Of a DNA stretch of 57,416 bases, positions 558 through 44,402 are shown piece by piece. The notes beneath the pieces are model-generated. The model did not search any database, was not told where the DNA came from, and saw nothing but the letters and a program-made list of their open reading frames with translations. The DNA is from Candidatus Izemoplasma sp. (GTDB taxonomy: Bacteria; Bacillota_I; Bacilli_A; Izemoplasmatales; Izemoplasmataceae). The stretch covers positions 1 through 57,416 of the forward strand of contig SLOP01000026.1 of the NCBI GenBank assembly GCA_007132465.1. Reading direction: 5' to 3'. Numbering within the stretch: position 1 is the first letter of the stretch; each line of letters begins with the position of its first letter. The position numbers and the translations under genes are program-made.

Positions 558-635
558 TAAAAAATCCTCCTCTTTTTTGGTTGGTGAGTATCATAAAAAC
601 CACAAAAAGGGAGAAATCTCTCGCATGACGGTGAC

Positions 636-706
636 GCATCATAGTCCCGATATTTACGGTTCCGGGGTAGAGACAATCAGACCCTATTTCTGATAATATA
701 TGATAC
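636..706 (-). promoter_or_regulatory. Purine riboswitch aptamer, guanine class
   Basis: On the minus strand, P1 pairs GTATCATA with TATGATGC; P2 is TCAGA/TCTGA closing the 7-nt loop AATAGGG; J2/3 contains GTCTCTAC; P3 carries loop CCGTAAA, the same as in the well-known xpt aptamer; J3/1 is AC followed by the P1 strand TATGATGC. The base equivalent to position 74 is C, as in guanine/hypoxanthine binders (adenine binders have U). It lies about 80 nt upstream of the permease start. I could not resolve a convincing terminator in the expression platform; a short GAGA/TCTC hairpin followed by CCTTTTT is the only candidate. Confidence 0.92.
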
Positions 707-717
707 TAACCGTTTTT

Positions 718-746
718 AGTTTACTAAAGATAATACCCAAAGGCAA
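718..746 (-). promoter_or_regulatory. Probable promoter of the riboswitch-permease unit
   Basis: Minus-strand TTGCCT (746-741), a 17-bp spacer and TAAACT (723-718) lie just upstream of the purine aptamer. Position fits, but both boxes are imperfect. Confidence 0.5.
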
Positions 747-31858: not shown

Positions 31859-31865
31859 GCAACTG

Positions 31866-32074
31866 TAAAGCGATGATGAGGACAAGTAGGCGCGAACGCA
31901 CGCAAAGCGAGCCGGTGGACGGTGCGAACCGGTCGGCGAACGCGCGCGAAATCTCCCTCGGAGCGGAGGCAAACCCTCCCGGCACATGCCGTTATCTTCT
32001 CGAGTGGGCGGGCAACCGTCAACGAGGGTGGCAACACGGGAATATCCCGTCCCTTTTTGAGGGACGGGTTTTTT
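31866..32074 (+). promoter_or_regulatory. Serine T-box leader (serS)
   Basis: tRNA-sensing leader. The T-box sequence AGGGTGGCAACACGGG is at 32025-32040; TGGC would pair with a tRNA 3' end having discriminator G, as tRNA-Ser does. The terminator CCCGTCCC/GGGACGGG plus T-run is at 32046-32074. Stem I has GAGG/CCTC at the base and GCGCG/CGCGC above, with an AGTA/GAA loop-E pair; the specifier loop GAAATCTC offers the Ser codon UCU (UCC if shifted one base). Confidence 0.9.
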
Positions 32075-43411: not shown

Positions 43412-43425
43412 TCTAAAACAAGCTT

Positions 43426-43493
43426 TTCTACGGATTCGCAGGGGTGGGGAGTGCTTAGCGCTTTCGCCGGCATTGTGTCGCTTTTTCGTAGAA
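43426..43493. repeat. Inverted repeat after asnS
   Basis: TTCTACG (43426-43432) and CGTAGAA (43487-43493) are perfect complements, extendable by two G-T pairs, enclosing a G-rich 54-nt segment with further self-complementarity (AGCGCT). No U-run follows. Could be an end-of-transcript structure or a relic of a small mobile unit. Confidence 0.4.
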
Positions 43494-43539
43494 GGCGTTG
43501 TTTGACGTATTTAGGATCAATGTGTTCATGTTTCACCGC

Positions 43540-43568
43540 TTGTGACACCTAGGCTTTATGTGTATAAT
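43540..43568 (+). promoter_or_regulatory. Promoter of the NYN gene
   Basis: TTGTGA (43540-43545), 17-bp spacer, TATAAT (43563-43568). Confidence 0.75.
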
Positions 43569-43593
43569 ACCTTCGTGAAGGGATGTGTGTACC

Positions 43594-44166
43594 ATGCCAC
43601 AGAAGACGGCAATTTTCATTGATGGGGGATACTTGGATTATGTGATAAAGGATTATGGATACAAGCGTATTGATTTTGAACGATTCATTCAATGGCTATG
43701 TGGAGACAAGCCGTTGCTTCGGGCATATTATTATCACTGCAAACCCTATGTTGGCTCGCCACCGAGTGATGCAGAAACACGGATGCAGTCGAACGCGGAT
43801 AAGTTTTACACGTACTTAGACACACTTCCCAATGTACAGACGCGGTTTGGAAAACTTAAGTACCGTGGGAAAAGGGATGATGGAAGTCCGATTTATATCC
43901 AAAAAGGTGTCGATGTGAAGATTGGCATCGACATGGTACAACTGGCACTAAAAAACAAAATAGGCCATGTTATTTTGGTTTCGGGAGACGCGGATTTGTT
44001 GCCTGCCGTCGACATCGCCATGGAAGAGGGAGTCGAAGTGACGCTCGTTGTGTCCGAATCCAACCAAACGGTGGCTTCAAGCGCGTTGTATAGAGCAGTC
44101 GATAATCGCAAGGAGTTCACAAAGGTCGTGTGCGAAAGCATGCTGGTCAATGGCAACAACGATTGA
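43594..44166 (+). CDS. NYN-domain (LabA/DUF88-like) putative nuclease
   Basis: A 190-residue NYN protein of the PIN-like nuclease fold. KTAIFIDGGYLDYVIKDYG carries the first acidic residue, GVDVKIGIDMVQLAL the second, and VILVSGDADLLPAVDIAMEEGVEV the third acidic cluster, so a metal-dependent RNase site looks complete. The ATG at 43594 follows GGGA at 10 nt; GTG 43585 is too near. Codon use is visibly more AT-rich than in its neighbours (many ATT, GAT, TTA-type codons), hinting at acquisition. Stands alone under its own promoter. Confidence 0.85.
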   Translation: MPQKTAIFIDGGYLDYVIKDYGYKRIDFERFIQWLCGDKPLLRAYYYHCKPYVGSPPSDAETRMQSNADKFYTYLDTLPNVQTRFGKLKYRGKRDDGSPIYIQKGVDVKIGIDMVQLALKNKIGHVILVSGDADLLPAVDIAMEEGVEVTLVVSESNQTVASSALYRAVDNRKEFTKVVCESMLVNGNND

Positions 44167-44193
44167 CTACGTCAAGCCGGCATGACATTGATG

Positions 44194-44222
44194 TTGACAT
44201 TCGCGATTAATTTCACTACAAT
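44194..44222 (+). promoter_or_regulatory. Promoter of a small RNA
   Basis: TTGACA (44194-44199), 17-bp spacer, TACAAT (44217-44222). Near-consensus, with no protein gene downstream on this strand. Confidence 0.85.
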
Positions 44223-44228
44223 ATCCAT

Positions 44229-44309
44229 AGATACTAACTGGTGTTCTGTTTGAGGGACGTCAGGTTGCATACGAAAGAGGCTTGCCTTTGGGCGAGTCTC
44301 TTCTTTTTT
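44229..44309 (+). ncRNA. Candidate small RNA of about 80 nt
   Basis: Defined by the promoter at 44194-44222 and an intrinsic terminator. Hairpin 1: CTGGTGTTC (44238-44246) pairs with GGACGTCAG (44255-44263), nine pairs with some G-U, loop of eight. Hairpin 2: AAGAGGCTTGCC (44275-44286) pairs with GGCGAGTCTCTT (44291-44302), 12 pairs, loop TTTG, then CTTTTTT. No usable start codon with a ribosome binding site inside. Not recognisable as 6S, SRP, tmRNA or a known riboswitch. A GTG frame (44241) exists but runs through the terminator. Confidence 0.65.
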
Positions 44310-44373
44310 GGTATGGCGTTACAGCAGAGGCAGTAAGAAAAAAGGTGTGCTTAGTTGCCTCATGACAGCACAT

Positions 44374-44402
44374 CGAAAAAAAGCCCCGCCGAGGCGGGGC
44401 TT
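44374..44402 (-). terminator. SPFH gene terminator
   Basis: AAGCCCCGCC and GGCGGGGCTT meet over a 2-nt gap (GA), followed by TTTTTT on the minus strand. Confidence 0.92.

Follow-up and report, generated by a model that had tools for sequence, protein, structure and literature searches.

We analysed a 57,416-nt stretch of contig SLOP01000026.1 from Candidatus Izemoplasma sp., referred to here as the window. Between its convergent asnS and SPFH genes lie a gene for a predicted nuclease with an NYN domain and, downstream on the same strand, a predicted small RNA (sRNA) unit. The locus comprises the following features:

43412 to 44375, no strand assigned: approximate extent of the apparent insertion carrying NYN and RNA at the asnS/SPFH junction (GC 46%, compared with 52% for the window)
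43540 to 43568, plus strand: TTGTGA-17-TATAAT, a putative promoter for NYN, distinct from that of the sRNA
43594 to 44166, plus strand: NYN-domain (PIN-like) predicted nuclease gene, 190 aa (Pfam PF01936, E = 1.6e-18)
44194 to 44222, plus strand: sRNA promoter, TTGACA-17-TACAAT, similarly placed with respect to the RNA in most homologous loci
44224 to 44277, plus strand: conserved core of the RNA family, as matched by the covariance model
44229 to 44309, plus strand: predicted sRNA transcript of ~80 nt, its start placed from the -10 box and a conserved AGAAUA-like 5′ end
44238 to 44263, plus strand: hairpin 1, CUGGUGUUCU-GUUUGA-GGGACGUCAG, whose upper stem holds U-A, U.G and C-G pairs that are nearly invariant across the family
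44275 to 44309, plus strand: intrinsic terminator of the sRNA, a stem followed by a U-tract

An initial annotation of the locus had described a promoter followed by two stem-loops and a U-tract without coding sequence, and our analysis recovered each of these parts. The promoter scan placed TTGACA at 44194–44199 and TACAAT at 44217–44222, separated by a 17-nt spacer, with 11 of 12 positions matching. The RNA (44229–44310) folds into two hairpins at −29.5 kcal/mol (z = −3.45), and none of 200 shuffles folded as well. Hairpin 1 is formed by 10 bp between 44238–44247 and 44254–44263 and contains several G-U pairs, as the annotation had stated. The terminator, with a 12-pair stem (44275–44302) followed by CTTTTTT, supplies most of the z value of the whole RNA (z = −4.1 by itself). 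Hairpin 1 taken alone is no more stable than its shuffles (z = −0.6), and folding energy alone is therefore no proof of an RNA. No credible open reading frame was found in the unit: those on the same strand either encode 31 aa (44241–44336) or start at or past the end of the terminator, and a protein-coding reading was dropped because none was plausible. The predicted unit thus combines its own promoter and an intrinsic terminator with the lack of a conserved reading frame, as expected of an independent sRNA. By itself, the raw sequence of the window is suggestive and no more.

NYN-domain RNases are widespread; to our knowledge, most of those in bacteria have no known partner or substrate. The protein encoded next to the sRNA matches PF01936 with 68.1 bits (cut-off 24.2) and no other Pfam family. 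Its AlphaFold2 model has a pLDDT of 93.5, and the only significant fold match is 2QIP, itself an NYN protein. In an alignment of 66 NYN homologues, D10 and D107 are invariant and D113, D132 and D134 nearly so. The protein thus shares PF01936, the PIN-like fold and the acidic residues with NYN ribonucleases such as the CRISPR-associated NYN of B. fragilis, VPA0982 (2QIP) and MARF1; it differs from these in having a candidate small RNA partner, as the available portions of their descriptions mention no dedicated one. The profile of the PADLOC candidate system HEC-09 also matches the protein weakly (30 bits, E = 7.7e-8), and no paper describing HEC-09 was found in the open-access literature searched.

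A DNA-level homologue search among 60 relatives matched only the window itself, because the RNA diverges too fast, and the single NYN protein used as a query against genome contigs gave no matches. An alignment of five NYN members used as the query returned 80 bacterial and archaeal loci and 5 viral loci; organism names were taken from record titles, and many are metagenome-assembled genomes (MAGs). A loose hairpin pattern matched beside many of these NYN genes, with no matches in reversed sequence at two substitutions. The family consensus of this hairpin is AUA...CUG..GUUC-loop-GGA.G.CAG. In an alignment of 29 copies, 93.8% of cells are paired, double changes occur in 6 of the 10 pairs and one position shows six pair types, while slid structures are only 31–58% paired. 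Extending the alignment to 49 copies gave 94.8% paired cells and double changes in 7 of 10 pairs; the U-A pair and the U.G wobble of the upper stem are almost constant. Since a regular expression had pre-selected the outer stem letters of the aligned copies, the unconstrained middle pairs provide the cleanest evidence of covariation. The conserved letters lie in the stem and in short AAU-type flanks; the loop varies in both sequence and length, from 4 to ~35 nt. That the hairpin recurs next to homologous NYN genes and shows compensatory changes bears out the earlier suggestion of selection at the RNA level. Compensation had been anticipated in both stems and is seen in hairpin 1, whereas the terminator stem keeps its structure while its sequence changes freely. 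Seven copies (L102, L100, L070, L087, L107, L090 and L160) have an extended apical stem, with ~70 instead of 50 nt and the core pairs kept.

A first covariance model detected 17 extra loci beyond its training set, all 17 of which adjoin an NYN gene. Model R1 scored the window copy at 32.6 bits, and model R3, trained without the window's order, located it at 44224–44277 (24.9 bits, E = 1.1e-6) as the best match in its genome. Across 90 genomes of the order, the three top matches of this leave-out model were the three copies neighbouring NYN genes, and the covariance search over the order added just one weak match beyond them. The arrangement could in principle have arisen by chance, or be a functionless 3′UTR of the NYN gene, since promoter- and terminator-like sites arise randomly and hairpin 1 is of ordinary stability; the covariation of the stem and the leading rank of the window copy under the leave-out model refute this reading, which we consider exceedingly improbable.

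The initial annotation had recognised no known family in this RNA, in agreement with Rfam 15, which gave no match to it at the gathering score. Relaxed thresholds yielded sub-gathering matches only, none of them specific to hairpin 1, and the abiF RNA family (RF03085) did not match at either the gathering or the relaxed threshold. Elsewhere in the window, Rfam identified only a T-box leader (31864–32057, plus strand, 106 bits) and a purine riboswitch (622–723, minus strand, 74.7 bits). We also found no description of an NYN-linked small RNA in the literature searched, which was limited to open-access papers. The RNA family therefore belongs to no Rfam 15 family and appears in none of these papers; an earlier description elsewhere is possible.

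The RNA lies beside 60 of 86 NYN homologue loci, within 251 nt, in more than 10 bacterial phyla and in archaeal MAGs. Of these 60 loci, 48 score at least 28 bits, and a few of the weakest dozen, which fall below this value, may be false. In 48 of the 60 loci, RNA and NYN share a strand and the RNA comes first, with a gap of 4–91 nt; it is downstream in 8 (including the window) and on the opposite strand in 4. A promoter score of at least 9 out of 12 was reached in 80% of loci compared with 10% in shuffles, and a terminator was found in 75% compared with 17%, which predicts a discrete RNA of ~75–80 nt in most loci.

Within the window's order, NYN occurs in 5 of 90 genomes, and the RNA in 3 of these 5 and in none of the other 85. 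In the three genomes, NYN is closely followed by a hairpin of this form, again with a promoter and a terminator, and this pattern is absent from the other 87. Searches that started from the RNA gave a concordant picture. Among 395 genomes of the class, strong matches occurred only in the three NYN genomes, beside NYN; the weaker ones had no adjoining NYN and were judged spurious. Among 301 genomes of another phylum, all four credible matches were in NYN genomes and included two new adjacent RNA–NYN pairs and one extra orphan copy. Orphan extra copies with a promoter were found at L155 (Anoxybacillus tepidamans), L160 (an Aminicenantes MAG that also has an NYN locus) and L204, those at L155 and L204 also having a terminator. 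The weak RNA matches L157, L158, L159, L161 and L162, as well as L207, were judged spurious. For the remaining 26 of the 86 NYN homologues, neither the surroundings of the gene nor the rest of the genome yielded a credible RNA copy; some of them are outgroups or viral, and NYN thus appears to be tolerated without the RNA in some lineages. In the NYN tree, a single broad RNA-bearing clade extends over many phyla with layouts clustering within it, and the most distant outgroup rows are without RNA. No third gene is common to the RNA–NYN loci, and the lack of a shared gene neighbour sets the NYN loci apart from the CRISPR-associated and other NYN ribonucleases named above.

On this comparative sequence evidence, the window RNA is a predicted non-coding unit under structural selection, linked to an NYN subfamily over great evolutionary distances. 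The link to the adjoining nuclease that had been proposed from the window is therefore supported across homologues, and the label "orphan" no longer applies to the window RNA, which is one member of a widespread family travelling with this subfamily.

The predominance of copies that precede NYN on its own strand, usually flanked by a promoter and a terminator, would also be compatible with a cis-acting leader of the NYN gene, either an attenuator or an autoregulatory site. We consider such a role very unlikely: most of the 8 downstream and 4 opposite-strand copies have their own promoter, and orphan copies exist. For the window layout it is ruled out by position, as an RNA downstream of NYN cannot be its leader. 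The 12 downstream and opposite-strand loci, together with the orphan copies, instead suggest action in trans.

With stem and flanks conserved and the loop free, the RNA seems more likely to be recognised by a protein than to act by base pairing. Cognate RNAs were predicted to pair with the NYN start region no better than swapped ones, and an antisense role at the NYN start was dropped for lack of a cognate signal. The same result weighs against an sRNA that regulates other genes, with NYN as the nuclease dedicated to processing it or turning it over. RNase activity is established for NYN/PIN enzymes (PMC11346440), and the proximity of one to the RNA would suit this arrangement; the loop and flank sequences, however, are too variable for conserved antisense targeting, and a CU-rich linker is present in just 7 of the 60 loci. 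We therefore regard it as improbable.

We favour, as roughly an even call, a two-part RNA–nuclease module in which NYN is restrained by the RNA. The short flanks and the stem, topped by the U-A, U.G and C-G pairs, would form a site to which the NYN protein binds directly, and the bound RNA would hold the nuclease in check, as in type III toxin–antitoxin and AbiF–ncRNA systems. Where the RNA precedes NYN, as in most loci, a terminator separating the two would hold NYN mRNA below the RNA in amount; in the window, where NYN comes first and the RNA has its own strong promoter, that promoter would provide the excess. The nuclease would be set free once the RNA is released or lost, for example during phage infection.

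Type III loci follow the order promoter, RNA, terminator, nuclease gene (PMC8860590), and most of the 48 upstream loci among the 60 share this order. Like ToxIN, CptIN and TenpIN, the module pairs a small structured RNA with a small nuclease gene, and the RNA unit of ~35 nt is another shared feature. It differs in its protein, which is NYN/PIN-like and not of the ToxN, CptN or TenpN families, and in its single hairpin, which replaces tandem repeats in the window and nearly all homologues. Further differences are the sizeable minority of NYN homologues without the RNA, the position of the window RNA downstream of NYN with its own promoter, and inhibition, which here is inferred only. As the toxin family and the tandem repeats both differ, we liken the module to type III systems and do not class it among them. 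In a Dehalococcoidia genome (L093:2868–2961), two tandem hairpin copies lie 5′ of NYN, resembling a minimal type III array.

The AbiF (Abi_2) system with its abiF-motif ncRNA (RF03085; RCd22 of C. difficile) offers a second parallel. There, 33–35-nt hairpin motifs bind the toxin directly and neutralise it both in cis and in trans (PMC12373285), and the layout of our 48 upstream loci resembles the one published for this system. Both systems have a dedicated ncRNA with a conserved ~35-nt hairpin and a terminator, and the ncRNA gene adjoins that of the protein, which is toxic in the case of AbiF. The protein superfamily and the RNA are different, NYN in place of Abi_2 and an RNA that gives no match to RF03085.

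In bacteria, a gene for a small structured Y RNA also adjoins that of the RNA-binding protein Ro60/Rsr. The likeness to our loci is in organisation only, as protein and RNA are both unrelated. It illustrates the main rival to restraint, in which NYN and the RNA form a ribonucleoprotein that depends on the RNA, as positive cofactor, scaffold or guide, for its activity or choice of target, with no antitoxin role. Linkage, trans layouts and protein-recognition-style conservation are equally expected of such a cofactor, and the absence of a third conserved gene is in keeping with it. The 26 NYN genes without the RNA also speak for a cofactor, being unexpected under a strict antitoxin model, and, like the presence of one hairpin rather than a tandem array in most loci, they count against restraint. 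Conversely, the terminator-separated order of RNA then nuclease, the viral RNA copies without NYN and the decay of NYN beside intact RNA fit inhibition better than a cofactor role, which we judge unlikely.

Several observations on gene content bear on whether the RNA restrains NYN. The distance between the 3′ ends of asnS and SPFH is 40–115 nt in 15 relatives and 1004 nt in the window, where NYN and the RNA lie in between. In the same genus, the region after the SPFH gene contains no RNA and represents an empty site. As far as these genomes indicate, NYN and the RNA are an insertion into an otherwise conserved junction, which may be an insertion hotspot and whose occupation would count towards toxin-like behaviour of the module. 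Another species of the genus (L010, genome G003) carries a different insert of ~1 kb at this junction, which includes a promoter-like sequence and a small ORF for a basic product.

NYN genes are broken beside intact RNA in further loci, through in-frame stops (L052, L074 and L090), frameshifts (L110, L111 and L112) and deletions or truncation (L104, L114, L116 and L156); several come from metagenome assemblies and could partly be errors. We take these broken genes as possible signs of a costly, toxin-like nuclease.

In four viral contigs, the RNA is present with no NYN detectable on the stretch examined:

L180, 4024 to 4074: RNA copy inside a tRNA-rich phage region
L169, 7064 to 7114, minus strand: RNA copy accompanied by a suitably spaced TATAAT box
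L185, 2712 to 2762, minus strand: RNA copy
L202, 4841 to 4892, minus strand: RNA copy

The reversed RNA pattern had no matches on the viral contigs. Plasmids and annotated phages yielded distant NYNs only, and blastn of the RNA against annotated phages gave no match. The viral copies without NYN are possible decoy RNAs and recall the RNA mimics of phage escape from ToxIN, for which phage mimicry of the RNA antitoxin is reported (PMC3475682). Together with the orphan copies and the broken NYN genes beside intact RNA, they would fit a model of restraint. We put forward as a tentative possibility that the module represents an RNA-guarded nuclease system which is widespread in bacteria and archaea and spreads horizontally, of a type III-like toxin–antitoxin or antiphage class that the sources searched do not describe, and that some phages carry the RNA alone as a decoy antitoxin.

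A covarying small RNA kept with one NYN subfamily over many phyla provides this subfamily with a partner that can be tested. Should the RNA indeed restrain the nuclease, one more protein superfamily would join the few RNA-antitoxin systems, and the viral copies without NYN would point to an arms race. Cultured carriers, among them Anoxybacillus, Geobacillus, Aneurinibacillus and Fictibacillus, make the module open to testing. In Anoxybacillus pushchinoensis (L156:2461–3300), a second RNA copy is followed by an NYN remnant and a HicB-like antitoxin gene.
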